A DNA stretch of 64,000 nt, from contig NZ_JAPVBH010000008.1 of the NCBI RefSeq assembly GCF_026967795.1, forward strand, positions 1-64,000, in the 5' to 3' direction. The DNA comes from Modestobacter sp. VKM Ac-2986 (GTDB taxonomy: Bacteria > Actinomycetota > Actinomycetes > Mycobacteriales > Geodermatophilaceae). Both the position numbers and the translations under genes were made by a program. The notes below the pieces were generated by a model, which worked only from the letters and a program-made list of their open reading frames with translations, made no database searches and was not told where the DNA came from. Shown one piece after another: positions 30,621-36,284 of this stretch; within the stretch, counting starts at the first letter, position 1, and each line of letters opens with the position of its first letter.

Positions 30621-31835
30621 TCAGCGGACGACGGAGCGCGCCTCGTCCTCGGCGACGGCCTCGCCGGCCTTGCGCGCCGCCATCCGCTCCTTCTGCGGGA
30701 TGACGATGTACTTCGGGTCCTTCGTGCTGGCGATGCCGGCCTCGAAGACGCCCATGCGGGTCATCACCGAGCCCGCGGCCAGCAGCGTGCCGCCGATGAC
30801 GGCACCGACCCGGGTACGGCCCAGCAGCGCGGTGAACGCCGCACCGGTGATCGTGGCCTTCTTGGCCGCGCGCATCAGCGTGCCGGCCTTGCCCTCGTGG
30901 TACGGCTCGCTCAGCAGGCCGTGACCGTGCTCCACCTTGTTGACCATGAACAGCTCGAGGGCCACCCCGGTCAGCGCCGTCTTGCGCGAGGGCCCGGCCT
31001 CGGCGACCGGGGTCAGGGCCATCGTGATCCCGCCGCCGGCCGCCATCGCCGACCCGGCGAAGACGAACGGCAGCTCGGTGTGCACCTCGTGCCAGCTCGG
31101 CGCCGCGGTGTTGGACAGCAGCACCGCGGTGTAGGTGGCCATCGGCCCGCCGAACGCGGCCGCGGCGATCGCCGAGGCCTTGCGGGCACCGGGGAAGAAC
31201 CGGGCCAGCGCCGGCAGGAACGGCAGCACCTTCGTGCCCAGCTTCAGCAGGGGCGCCAGCTCCAGCAGCCGGAAGCCGGCCGCGGCGGAGGTGAAGGCGC
31301 TGAACGGCGACAGGATGTAGGAGCCCACGGACAGCGGGGACGTCGGCTTGAACACCCGGAGCATGTGCAGGAAGCGCTCCGGCCGGCCCAGGTCGTCGAT
31401 CAGCAGCACGACCGAGCCCAGCGCCGCGGCGCCTGCGACGTACTCGGCGTTGCGGGCCAGCGTGGGCCGGTCGGTGAACTCGGCGAGGGCACCCAGCACC
31501 GACGACGTGCCCGCGGCACCACCGAGGAACAGGTACAGCGGGACCTCGGGGTTCTTCCACGTCGGCGTCTTGACGATCTGCCGGCCGTAGTAGGAGCTGA
31601 ACTCCGCGTCGGGGACCATGGCCGCCTCGCGGTTGCCACTGCCCCACCCGCCACCGCCCTTGCGGCGCTTGCGCCGCTTGGGCTGGGTCAGGTCGGCGCC
31701 ACCGGCGCGGTGCCAGCCACCCGCCGCCGCCGCCAGCGGCGCCTCGCCGGCCGGCTCGTTGCCGGTCGAGCCGGCGTCGACGGAGCGCCCGTTGAGGTGC
31801 GCGTCGTCCGGGCTGGTGCTGCTCGGGGTGGTCAT
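30621..31835 (-). CDS. NrfD/PsrC-type membrane subunit of formate dehydrogenase
   Basis: Membrane quinone-side subunit. A hydrophilic head (residues 1-75, with KRRKRRKGGGG) leads to VPLYLFLGGAAGTSSVLGALAEF and about eight further hydrophobic segments; LIDDLGRPERFLHMLRVFKPTSPLSVGSYIL is the hallmark of NrfD-like proteins (D..RP.R..HML.V.K..SP...G). It would pass electrons from the ferredoxin subunit to menaquinone. ATG 31835 overlaps the upstream TGA by one base (TGATG). 404 residues. The organism thus pairs FdhA/B with an NrfD-type rather than cytochrome b-type anchor. Confidence 0.87.
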   Translation of the reverse strand: MTTPSSTSPDDAHLNGRSVDAGSTGNEPAGEAPLAAAAGGWHRAGGADLTQPKRRKRRKGGGGWGSGNREAAMVPDAEFSSYYGRQIVKTPTWKNPEVPLYLFLGGAAGTSSVLGALAEFTDRPTLARNAEYVAGAAALGSVVLLIDDLGRPERFLHMLRVFKPTSPLSVGSYILSPFSAFTSAAAGFRLLELAPLLKLGTKVLPFLPALARFFPGARKASAIAAAAFGGPMATYTAVLLSNTAAPSWHEVHTELPFVFAGSAMAAGGGITMALTPVAEAGPSRKTALTGVALELFMVNKVEHGHGLLSEPYHEGKAGTLMRAAKKATITGAAFTALLGRTRVGAVIGGTLLAAGSVMTRMGVFEAGIASTKDPKYIVIPQKERMAARKAGEAVAEDEARSVVR

Positions 31836-32911
31836 CAGCGCCGCCGTCCCAGGAAGGAGGAGGCGACCACGCCGACGATCATCGCCGCACCGGTGGCCGC
31901 GGCCTTCCACATGGCGGGGAGGTCGCGGGTGGTGACGATCGGGTCCGGCGGCAGGCCGTAGACCTCCGGCTCGTCGAGCAGCAGGAAGAACGCCCCCACG
32001 CCACCGACGCCGTCGCTCTCGTCCCGCCCGTAGAGCCGGGCCGTCTCCACACCCTGGCTCTTGAGCGTGGCCAGCCGGGCGTCGGCCCGGGCCTGCAGCT
32101 CGTCGAGGTCGCCGAACTGGATCGACTGGGTCGGGCACGCCGTGGCACAGGCCGGCTGCAGACCGTCGGTCAGCCGGTCGTAGCACATCGTGCACTTGAA
32201 GGCCCGGCCGTCGTCCTTGCGGACGTCGATGACGCCGTAGGGGCAGGCCGAGACGCAGTAGCCGCAGCCGTTGCAGATGTCGCCCTGGACGACGACGGTG
32301 CCGAACTCGGTGCGGAAGAGCGCACCGGTCGGGCAGACGTCGAGGCAGCCGGCGTGCGTGCAGTGCTTGCAGACGTCGGAGGACATCAGCCAGCGGATCT
32401 GCGTGCCGCCGTCGCCACCGGTGACGGAGGTCTGCGGGTCGAACTCGCTCAGCGCCTCGGCGTTCAGCACGCTGGTCTGCGCGGACAGCACGCTGTCGGC
32501 CTGCGGGCTGATCGCGTTGGCACCGTGGTCGTGACCGTGGTCGTGCCGGTCGGCGCCGGGCATCCCGATCGTGGGCATCGGCAGGTCGACCGAGCGGCTC
32601 TGCTCGATGAAGGACACGTGGCGCCAGGAGTTGGCGCCCAGCTGACCGGTGTTGTCGTAGGACATGCCGGACATGCCCATCTGACCGAGCACGCCGTTCG
32701 AGTCGTCCATCGGGAGCGTGTTCCACTCCTTGCAGGCCACCTCGCACGCCTTGCAGCCGATGCAGACCGAGGTGTCGGTGAAGAAGCCCACCCGGCTCGG
32801 GTGGTCCTCCTCGTACCCCGCGTCGGCCGACACGTCGGGCAGCGGCCCGAACAGCCGGTTCCTGCTGTCGGCGCCCTCCAGGGAGGGACTGGCCGAGCTG
32901 ACCGTGGTCAT
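31835..32911 (-). CDS. iron-sulfur (four [4Fe-4S]) subunit of formate dehydrogenase, FdhB-like
   Basis: Electron-transfer subunit. Four cysteine clusters are visible: CIGCKACEVACKEWN, CKHCTHAGCLDVCPTGA, CNGCGYCVSACPYGV and CTMCYDRLTDGLQPACATACP. Between the first two lies a long insertion with a His/Asp run (DRHDHGHDHG) and many Gln/Ser, longer than usual. The C-terminus ends in a hydrophobic helix and RRR (AAMIVGVVASSFLGRRR), a possible membrane anchor. ATG 32911 has GGGGA nearby. 358 residues; follows fdhA by 37 bases. Confidence 0.88.
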   Translation of the reverse strand: MTTVSSASPSLEGADSRNRLFGPLPDVSADAGYEEDHPSRVGFFTDTSVCIGCKACEVACKEWNTLPMDDSNGVLGQMGMSGMSYDNTGQLGANSWRHVSFIEQSRSVDLPMPTIGMPGADRHDHGHDHGANAISPQADSVLSAQTSVLNAEALSEFDPQTSVTGGDGGTQIRWLMSSDVCKHCTHAGCLDVCPTGALFRTEFGTVVVQGDICNGCGYCVSACPYGVIDVRKDDGRAFKCTMCYDRLTDGLQPACATACPTQSIQFGDLDELQARADARLATLKSQGVETARLYGRDESDGVGGVGAFFLLLDEPEVYGLPPDPIVTTRDLPAMWKAAATGAAMIVGVVASSFLGRRR

Positions 32912-32948
32912 CGCCGTTCCCCGTTCTCGGTGTTCAGTGGACCGGTGC

Positions 32949-35900
32949 TCATGCGCCTGAGGCCTCCATCGCACTGGGGTCCTCGTCGGGGGCGCGGCCG
33001 TTGAGGCCGACCCGGCCCGACTCGACGCCGGCCCGCATCCGGTAGGCCTCGACGTAGTCCAGCAGCTCCGGCCCGCGCGGCCGGCGGCCGGGCACGATGT
33101 CGGCGGTGCTGACCTTGTCCTCCTGGATGTGCGTGTTCGCGTCCAGGACGATCCCGAGCAGGTCGTTGGCGTTGTCGCCGGTCGACAGACCTGCGTAGGA
33201 CCAGTGGTAGGGCATGCCGATCTGGTGCACGACCTGCCCGCCCTTGAGCTTGATCGGGCGCATCCGCTCGGTCACCAGCACCTTGGCCTCGATCGCCGTC
33301 CGGGCGCTGATCAGCGTGGCGAACTCGCCATTGGTCAGGCCGCGCAGCTCGGCGAGCTCGGGGGAGACCTCGACGAAGAACTCCGGCTGGAGCTCGGACA
33401 GGTAGGGCAGGGTGCGGCTCATCGCGCCGGCCGTGTGGTGCTCGGTGAGCCGGTAGGTGGTCACCTGGAACGGGTACACCTCGCTGCGCGAGGGGTTCTC
33501 CCGGTTCCAGGGCCCCGCGATCCGCTCGATGGTCGGGCTGGACTGCTGCCCGTACAGGTGGTTCTCCGCCACCGACTCCGAGGGCTCGTAGTGCGTCGGC
33601 ATCGGGCCGTCGACCAGCCCGGCCGGTGCGTACAGCCAGCCCTTGCCGTCGCCCTGCATGACGAACGGGTCGGCACCACCGATGGCGGCCTGCGCCTGCG
33701 CGCCCTCCGGCGGCACGTAGTCCGGCCGCTTGGTCGCCTCGAAGTCCGGGACGTCCTCCCCGACCCAGCGGCCGGCTGCCTCGTCCCAGGACACGTAGGC
33801 CTTGCGCTCGCTCCACGGCTTGCCGTCGGGGTCGGCCGAGGCGCGGTTGTAGAGCATGCGGCGGTTGAGCGGCCAGGCCCAGCCCCACTCGCCGGCCACC
33901 GGGCCCTGCTCGCGGGCCGGCTTGCGGCGGGCGGCCTGATTGACCTCGTCGGCGTAGACGCCGGTGTAGATCCAGCAGCCGCCGGACGTCGACCCGTCGT
34001 CCTTCATGTCGATGTAGGTCGACAGCGCCCGGCCGTCGGCGCCCACGCCGTTGATCTCGCGCAGCACCGCCTCGGCGTCGGGGTCGGCGGTGTGCCCGAG
34101 GGTCGGGTAGTCCCAGGTGAGGGTCTGCACCGGACGGTCGCGCGGGTCGGTCGAGGAGGCCAGCCGCTCGCGGATGATGCGGCCCAGGTGGAAGTAGAAC
34201 CACAGGTCGCTGCGCGCGTCCATGGGCGGCTCGACGGCCTTCTCCCGCCACTGCAGCAGCCGCTGCGTCTGGGTGAAGGTGCCCTCCTTCTCCACGTGCG
34301 TCGCCGCGGGCATGAAGAAGACCTCGGTGCCGATCGTCTCCGGCGCCATCTCGCCGGACTCGATCTCCGGCCCTTCCTTCCAGAAGGTCGCCGACTCGAT
34401 CATCTGCAGGTCGCGGACGACGAGCCAGTCGAGGTTGGCCAGGCCGAACCGGTTCATCTTGCCGTTGGGGTGCCCGACGGAGGGGTTCTCCCCGACCAGG
34501 AAGTAGCCGTGCACCTTGCCGGCGATCATGTCCGCGATCGTGCGGTAGGAGCTGTGGTCGCCGTTGATCTTGGGGATGTAGTCGAAGGCGAAGTCGTTCT
34601 CTTCCCGAGCCTCGTCGCCCCACCAGCTCTTGAGCATGCTGGTGATGTAGGCGGGCTTGTTGCCCCAGAAGCCGCCCTTGCCGGCGGCGTCGGCCACGTA
34701 GTCGGCCAGCGTCTCGTGCAGCGCCGCGTGCGGCATCGGCAGGTAGCCGGGCAGCAGGTTGTACAGCGTCGGGACGTCGGTCGAGCCCTGGATGCTGGCG
34801 TGGCCGCGCAGCGCCATGATCCCGCCGCCGGGGCGGCCGATGTTGCCCAGCAGCAGCTGCAGGATCGAGGCGGTGCGGATGTACTGCGCGCCGACGCTGT
34901 GCTGCGTCCAGCCCACCGAGTACACCCACGCCGTCGTCCGGTCGCGGTTGCTGTTCGACGTGACCCACTTGGCGACCTGCTCGAACACCTCCGGCTCGAT
35001 GCCGCAGACGTCGGAGACCATCTCCGGGGTGTAGCGGGCGAAGTGCCGCTTCAGCACCTGGAAGACGGTGCGCGGGTGCTCCAGCGTCTCGTCGCGCTTG
35101 GGCTTGGCCGGGATCGTGGGCCCGCCGCTGCCGTGGGTCTGCGCCTGGTCGCTGGCCTCGACGGAGTCCTGCTGGTTGCCGGCCTCCTGCTCGGCGGCCC
35201 CGGCGGGGTCGTCGGAGCTGGCGTGCGGCGCCTCGGCGGGCTCGTAGGCCCAGCTGCTCTCGTCGTACTGACCGGTCTCCGGGTCGAAGCCGGAGAACAG
35301 GCCACCGAGGTCCTCGGTGTCGACGAAGTCCTCGCCCACCAGCGACGCGGCGTTGGTGTAGGAGACCACGTAGTCACGGAAGTACAGGTCGTTGTCCAGC
35401 ACGTACTTGATCAGCGCGCCGAGGAACGCGATGTCGGTGCCGAGCCGGATCGGCACGTGCAGGTCGGCGATCGCCGACGTGCGCGTGAACCGCGGGTCGA
35501 TGTGGATGATCTTGGCGCCGCGCGCCTTGGCCTCCGTCACCCACTGGAACCCGACCGGATGGCACTCGGCCATGTTCGAGCCCTCGATGACGATGCAGTC
35601 GGCGTTGGCGAGGTCCTGCAGGGGGTTCGTGGCGCCGCCACGACCGAACGAGGCTCCCAGACCGGGAACCGTCGCGGAGTGCTATATGCGGGCCTGGTTC
35701 TCGATCTGCACAGCACCCAGGGCGCTGTACAGCTTCTTCATCAAGTAGTTCTCTTCGTTGTCCAGCGTCGCGCCGCCCAGGCTGGCGAAGCCCATGGTGC
35801 GGTTGACGCGCTTGCCGCCGTCCATGGTCTGCCAGCCCTTCTCACGGGCCTCCAGGACGCGGTCGGCGATCATCTCCATCGCCGTGTCGAGGTCGAGGTC

Positions 35901-36284
35901 CTCCCAGTCCGTGGCGTACGGACGGCGGTACTTGACCGTCGTGACGCGCGTCGGGCTGGTGACCAGCTGCTTGGTCGCGCTGCCCTTGGGGCAGAGCCGG
36001 CCGCGGCTGATCGGGGAGTCGGGGTCGCCCTCGATCTGGACGATCTGCTCGTCCTTCACGAAGACCCGCTGCGCGCAACCGACGGCGCAGTACGGGCAGA
36101 CCGACTTCACCACCTTGTCGGCGGTCGCGGTGCGGCTGACCACCTGCTCGGTGGCCTTGCTGCGCGCGGCCACGCCGCGCCCCAGCGGGTCGTTTCCAGT
36201 GAGCTGCCGGAACACCGGCCACGCGTCGAGCCACGTCTTCACGTCCGGGAGCTTGCCACCTGGTCGCGCCCGACGCTCGTCCAC
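32949..36284 (-). CDS. fdhA: selenocysteine formate dehydrogenase alpha subunit, Sec encoded by in-frame TAG
   Basis: Molybdenum/tungsten bis-MGD enzyme oxidising formate to CO2. The reading frame is open on both sides of one TAG at 35684-35682. Before it come the [4Fe-4S] motif (Cys63, 66, 70, 98) and ENQARI; after it HSATVPGLGASFGRG, then AECHPVGF. In selenocysteine homologs such as E. coli FdnG the context is NQARV-Sec-H, so TAG (codon 201) sits at the Sec site. A SECIS hairpin follows at the canonical distance. No Cys codon could serve instead. Total 1111 residues from GTG 36284; GTG 36242 is also possible. A Glu/Gln/Ala-rich insert lies at about 35110-35245. Automated calling would split this gene in two. 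Confidence 0.93.
35652..35684 (-). promoter_or_regulatory. UAG selenocysteine codon with bacterial SECIS element
   Basis: UAG at 35684-35682 is followed by 11 bases and then arm GGUUCCC (35670-35664), loop GGUCU (35663-35659) and arm GGGAGCC (35658-35652): seven pairs, one a G-U. The loop GGUCU is the same as in the E. coli fdhF SECIS, and in both genes 18 bases separate the Sec codon from it. This is the SelB-binding element expected for recoding; the unusual part is that the codon is UAG, not UGA. Confidence 0.92.

Follow-up and report, generated by a model that had tools for sequence, protein, structure and literature searches.

UAG-encoded selenocysteine (Sec) has reportedly been described in the family Geodermatophilaceae, in the 2016 work of Mukai, where it is said to have been confirmed by 75Se or mass spectrometry. 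Passages of Santesmasses 2017 describe three Geodermatophilaceae genomes with a tRNA-Sec of anticodon CUA and with FDH, UGSC and AhpC selenoproteins (PMC5330540). Excerpts of other sources state that Sec is written in some species by UAG, UAA and ten sense codons (PMC10778597) and that UAG stands for Sec in some bacteria (PMC8124441), and natural UAG-Sec is unnamed in passages of PMC7609411 and PMC13188914. Our literature search, limited in coverage, returned PMC5330540 and otherwise a tick paper for Geodermatophilaceae with selenoprotein, and no paper for UAG selenocysteine with Modestobacter or for tRNASec UAG with Coriobacteri.

Here we analyze a stretch of 64,000 nucleotides from the soil actinobacterium Modestobacter sp. 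VKM Ac-2986, referred to as the window. Judged from sequence, the genome to which it belongs almost certainly decodes one UAG codon, in the formate dehydrogenase gene fdhA, as selenocysteine. The evidence for this use of UAG in the window's fdhA is strong, yet the use itself is no novelty, the trait being already published for Geodermatophilaceae; an earlier interpretation of the window from its letters (the sequence-only reading) had said that it was reported for Geodermatophilus and Blastococcus. The features concerned are the following.

32949..36242, minus strand: fdhA, Sec-containing formate dehydrogenase catalytic subunit (NF041513, 1888.4 bits, cut-off 1400; 1097 aa through one TAG).
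35682..35684, minus strand: in-frame TAG, predicted to encode Sec as residue 187 (opposite the X of PDB 1h0h in alignment; TAG in 118/118 covering family matches).
35685..35687, minus strand: ATA isoleucine codon adjoining the fdhA TAG (ATA in 39/39 TAG fdhA read).
35652..35670, minus strand: predicted SECIS hairpin of 7 pairs, loop GGUCU (pairing in 139/140 cells of 20 distinct TAG sequences).
31835..32974, minus strand: fdhB-like iron-sulfur subunit, start approximate (top match TIGR01582 FDH-beta, E 1.3e-53, 181.9 bits, under the cut-off of 334.7).

On the minus strand the fdhA site reads CAG GCC CGC ATA TAG CAC TCC, with the TAG at 35684-35682. With this codon translated as U, fdhA encodes a single protein of 1097 aa that begins at a GTG at 36242, our choice of start, and ends at 32949; residue 187 is U, and the frame contains no further stop. 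The protein exceeds the curated cut-off of the NCBIfam model NF041513 (formate_DH_Act), and in alignment U187 lies opposite the X of the formate dehydrogenase sequence PDB 1h0h, in the motif QARI-X-HSATV; we take this X to be Sec. The single in-frame TAG that had been placed at the Sec position of fdhA from the letters is confirmed by the codon read-out, the model score and the alignment together.

Long genes with in-frame stops are also what pseudogenes look like, and the TAG could be a nonsense mutation or a sequencing error. Against this stands its conservation. A 260-residue FdhA query gave 125 close matches across 112 Geodermatophilaceae genomes, 118 of them spanning the Sec residue, and every one of the 118, found in 98 of the 112 genomes, carries one TAG; since the codon recurs at the same site in all covering matches, it is not there by chance. 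Nor was a further stop seen from 444 nt before to 1650 nt after the TAG in any of the 38 family fdhA loci read, and codon changes downstream of the TAG, summed over 36 ancestry-sharing comparisons with the window sequence, were synonymous 679 times versus 479 nonsynonymous. Decay of the gene or an error in the read is so improbable as to be negligible, and we retain the reading of the TAG as a Sec codon.

The seven close matches that do not span the Sec residue come from G034, G097, G099 and G080, the last with four, of which one contains a TGA in the second half. Fourteen genomes are without a TAG match. Five of them are G080, G034, G035, G095 and G097; the other nine (G067-G075) belong to genera g6, g7 and g8 and have distant FdhA matches only or none. 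Loss of the Sec codon in G080 (Modestobacter sp. Leaf380; loci L089 and L090) was considered and rejected: both of its fdhA copies are without the Sec/SECIS stretch and are identical just past the gap, which is probably a short-read assembly collapse of two near-identical fdhA copies. A query for the UGSC-type selenoprotein matched 53 of the 112 genomes, the window's genome not among them, so that by this query it has no UGSC-type selenoprotein gene; fdhA is the only selenoprotein gene found there. Among the 94 UGSC-type matches listed in the family, a single TAG is present in 72, and the remaining 22 contain no stop.

The codon before the fdhA TAG is ATA in all 39 TAG genes read, though ATA is rare among sampled isoleucine codons, accounting for one of 1287 in 125 crudely predicted genes of the window's genome. 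In 22 fdhA genes from outside the family the codon before TGA is ATT (14) or ATA (8), never ATC. Avoidance of C immediately ahead of the Sec codon was considered as a rule and rejected, since GAC precedes TAG in all four UGSC genes pattern-read.

The sequence-only reading had placed neither the tRNA nor sel genes in the window, and the 64 kb indeed contain neither a tRNA nor any Rfam match that reaches its gathering score. Elsewhere in the same assembly, which comprises 15 contigs and 4.19 Mb, a covariance search places a tRNA-Sec at C8:534055-534146, scoring 64.6 bits with RF01852 against a gathering score of 47. The match spans the entire tRNA-Sec model, the variable arm is long and ARAGORN reads the anticodon as CTA (CUA). 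Four weaker RF01852 matches in the assembly are three tRNA-Ser and one tRNA-Tyr, and neither the covariance model nor a tRNA pattern found a UCA tRNA-Sec in this genome. On the same contig lie selA (414.6 bits), selB (290.3) and selD (381.3), all above the NCBIfam cut-offs. The tRNA-Sec with a CUA anticodon, SelA and SelB that the sequence-only reading had predicted are thus encoded in the assembly, and neither an absence of selA, selB or selC nor a tRNA-Sec set limited to UCA, which it had named as counter-evidence, is seen there.

That the CUA tRNA might insert pyrrolysine, or an ordinary amino acid in the manner of an amber suppressor, is suggested by ARAGORN, which labels the gene tRNA-Pyl, and by some CUA tRNAs of other phyla that fit the general tRNA model and not tRNA-Sec. 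The ARAGORN label is given by the anticodon, however, and the gene scores 64.6 bits as tRNA-Sec and has a long variable arm; tRNA-Pyl has a short variable region according to passages of PMC7609411, a shape that the window's tRNA does not share. Near-alike UCA tRNA-Sec genes sit on selA contigs of the family, and the TAG occupies the Sec site of a Sec enzyme. We consider insertion of pyrrolysine or an ordinary amino acid highly improbable. A third alternative is that UAG is read as serine from unconverted seryl-tRNA-Sec and that the enzyme carries Ser, given that SerRS acts first on tRNA-Sec (passages of PMC10778597); with selA and selD both present and over their cut-offs, the chance of this is close to nil. 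Selenocysteine therefore remains our reading of the codon.

The genome is placed by sequence comparison in Geodermatophilaceae, near Modestobacter muralis. Aligned pieces of its selA/tRNA-Sec region share 86 to 95% DNA identity with M. muralis DSM 100205, the tRNA-Sec gene is identical in the two and their SelA proteins pair in a tree (100/99). About 6.5 kb between selA and tRNA-Sec in the window's genome is absent from M. muralis; this insert (L006 3519-10052) holds an arabinofuranosidase-like gene, sugar-transport genes and a LacI-like regulator, named by eye.

The hairpin that had been described from the letters, with 7 bp, a GGUCU loop and an 18-base codon-to-loop spacing, is borne out in the window as GGUUCCC-GGUCU-GGGAGCC, with 18 bases separating the TAG from GGUCU; E. 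coli fdhF presumably has the same spacing. Taken alone, the 45-nt fold does not stand out (z -1.38; 22 of 200 shuffles as stable). For comparison, 39 TAG and 22 TGA fdhA genes were read out, giving 20 distinct sequences of each. The loop is GGTCT in all 20 TAG sequences and GGTCT (13), AGTCT (4) or AGTTT (3) in the TGA sequences, at the same distance from the codon, and the position of the hairpin is identical in the 22 TGA genes, all from outside the family. Over all 40 distinct sequences, pairing is seen in 269 of 280 cells (shuffle mean 249.3; 0 of 2000 shuffles reach the observed value). The pair 18-30, which joins two third codon positions, is present in every one of the 40 and takes five forms (0 of 5000 shuffles), and with the TGA sequences alone the observed total is attained by 21 of 2000 shuffles; all of these tests overstate significance because the compared sequences share ancestry. 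The support for the predicted SECIS hairpin is comparative and does not come from single-sequence stability.

Under the proposed mechanism, SerRS would charge tRNA-Sec-CUA, SelA and SelD would turn the tRNA-bound serine into selenocysteine, SelB would deliver the charged tRNA only where a SECIS hairpin comes after UAG, and release factor 1 would compete at the fdhA UAG; the roles of SerRS, SelB and release factor 1 are drawn from the known bacterial Sec system. Stop codons of the 125 crudely predicted genes, sampled from about 200 kb of the window's genome, are UGA (111), UAG (11) and UAA (3). Because UAG ends 11 of these genes, it is a stop recoded by context and not a reassigned codon. We infer Sec insertion at the fdhA UAG, as we do the direction and number of the codon switches considered below.

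Within the family, the tRNA pattern finds tRNA-Sec-CUA in 101 of 112 genomes, a UCA tRNA-Sec alone in seven (G067, G069, G070, G071, G073, G074 and G075, of g6, g7 and g8) and neither in four (G068, G072, G098 and G099); G059 has both. By genus, CUA occurs in nine and UCA in three. A scan of titled records, covering at least 116 loci and possibly missing records very close to the window's genome, shows the CUA tRNA in Blastococcus, Geodermatophilus, Modestobacter, Klenkia, Trujillonella and Goekera. No UGA-fdhA is seen within Geodermatophilaceae because the UCA genera lack this fdhA. In four loci of g7 and g8 the UCA tRNA-Sec and selA share a contig; there selA is 63 to 65% and selB 58 to 69% identical to its counterpart in the window's genome, with partial selB matches in L091 and L093. 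The UCA tRNA-Sec and that of the window's genome differ at the anticodon and at the pair adjoining the loop, U-A against C-G.

We built a SelA tree on 34 rows, a thinned set of 85 that includes a Coriobacteriia row as outgroup. In it, one branch with 97/100 support splits four UCA rows from 29 CUA rows; a branch setting the CUA rows apart appeared in 26% of the bootstrap trees, and two changes at minimum account for all three groups. The Coriobacteriia branch is too long to root the tree, which is therefore silent on the older state within the family; for fdhA only, the TGA outgroup indicates that state. The simplest account would be one switch within Geodermatophilaceae from UCA to CUA and from UGA to UAG, in which the anticodon of an existing tRNA-Sec gene would have changed and the Sec codons with it, the SECIS staying as it was.

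Outside the family, all 65 fdhA matches listed from a search of 397 genomes of the order, in 61 genomes, carry TGA, and a single one of these has a TAG in addition. A Jatrophihabitans MAG (G435) was rejected as a UAG-Sec case: it has a tRNA-Sec-CUA on a 4.8-kb contig, yet both of its fdhA copies have TGA, and the contig is most likely a wrongly binned Geodermatophilaceae fragment. Among 30 listed loci titled outside Geodermatophilaceae, tRNA-Sec-CUA was found in two, L127 and L203; L157 ('Frankiales') and L115 ('Bacillus'), both with tRNA-Sec-CUA, were set aside from those 30. The remaining listed loci were rejected, Rfam or ARAGORN giving suppressor-like tRNAs or nothing at the place of the match. 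CTA-anticodon tRNAs stand at L102, L120, L125, L143, L158 and L175, in Clostridia, Alphaproteobacteria, Deltaproteobacteria, Mollicutes, Saccharimonadia and Erysipelotrichaceae records; these fit the general tRNA model and are therefore amber-suppressor-like.

Locus L203 belongs, together with L304-L307, to one contig (JAUNNF010000009.1) of the Coriobacteriia MAG S32M_St_metabat_43, which is likely an independent UAG-Sec lineage and maybe a new one. In one cluster this contig carries grdB, grdA, selA, selB, tRNA-Sec-CUA and selD. GrdA (PF04723, 266.7 bits) has its TAG in STECFV-TAG-TSAGAMDLENQ and GrdB (TIGR01918, 673.8 bits; PF07355, 553.1 bits) in ILTST-TAG-GTCTRCG, at U347; selA, selB and selD were recognized by similarity (33, 39 and 34% identity) and the tRNA-Sec, with anticodon CTA, scores 64.2 bits. 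As TAG ends 11 of the 50 other long frames found there by a crude caller, it is also a stop on this contig. The 60-base folds from both grd TAGs show no clear SECIS, which counts against the UAG-Sec reading. Thirteen of 137 other genomes of the MAG's family match the strict tRNA pattern, at 14 loci, where ARAGORN found two tRNA-Sec, both UCA (L294 and L296), and no CTA tRNA. The idea that UAG is chosen because UGA is the main stop is unsupported by the Coriobacteriia contig, where TAA leads.

Geodermatophilus sp. LHW52908 (G059) possibly uses two Sec codons in one cell, as its genes would suggest, and this may be new. Beside tRNA-Sec-CUA, a TAG-fdhA and a TAG UGSC gene, it has on contig C17 (L087 1173-2154) a UCA tRNA-Sec of 81.8 bits and, at a distance of about 300 bases, a frame interrupted by TGA in NRCFY-TGA-MESH that matches the CMD family (PF02627, 28.1 bits, cut-off 23); a 60-base fold from this TGA, made without a shuffle control, contains a 7-pair hairpin. 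A second TGA-split frame, L087 4496-5530, gave no Pfam match. The far end of C17 is Geodermatophilus, since a 2-kb piece near it has a match in every one of the 25 other genomes of the genus, at 80 to 85% identity in 24 and at 71% in G061. The first 20 kb have a G+C of 0.697 versus 0.754 to 0.765 and contain transposase-like frames, noted by eye; for both reasons they look like an acquired island, or may perhaps be the product of a misjoin. An ALIL pseudoknot (65.8 bits), which we take to belong to insertion elements, lies at L087 9125-9253 in the low-G+C stretch with the UCA tRNA-Sec. Neither selA nor selB was found on C17, and one selB of this genome was seen on C11; a single SelB may serve both the CUA and the UCA tRNA-Sec.

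The window itself is one more instance of a published code variant. Geodermatophilaceae as a whole, with CUA and UCA genera and a SECIS kept as in its UGA relatives, makes a natural codon change accessible to direct study. We tentatively propose, as plausible yet somewhat short of probable, that the choice of Sec codon has shifted on more than one occasion and that two such codons can coexist, through an independent UAG-Sec in Coriobacteriia and a gain of the UCA tRNA in LHW52908, where two stops would be read as Sec with a single set of sel proteins. A second lineage and a two-codon strain, if true, would bear on how easily the Sec codon shifts and on whether both states coexist.

Among known systems, the closest is the UAG-Sec of the Mukai type, with which the window's genome shares the CUA tRNA-Sec, the TAG at the FDH Sec codon and the family. 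What differs from earlier work on Geodermatophilaceae is a genome near Modestobacter muralis, the survey of 112 genomes and the UCA tRNA in three genera. With canonical UGA-Sec, of the E. coli fdhF/fdnG type, it has in common selA, selB, selD, tRNA-Sec, a SECIS after the codon and an FDH target, but the codon is UAG and the anticodon CUA, and RF1 rather than RF2 would compete. The pyrrolysine system has the same UAG codon and CUA anticodon, whereas here the tRNA fits tRNA-Sec, a SECIS follows the codon and UAG serves also as a stop.
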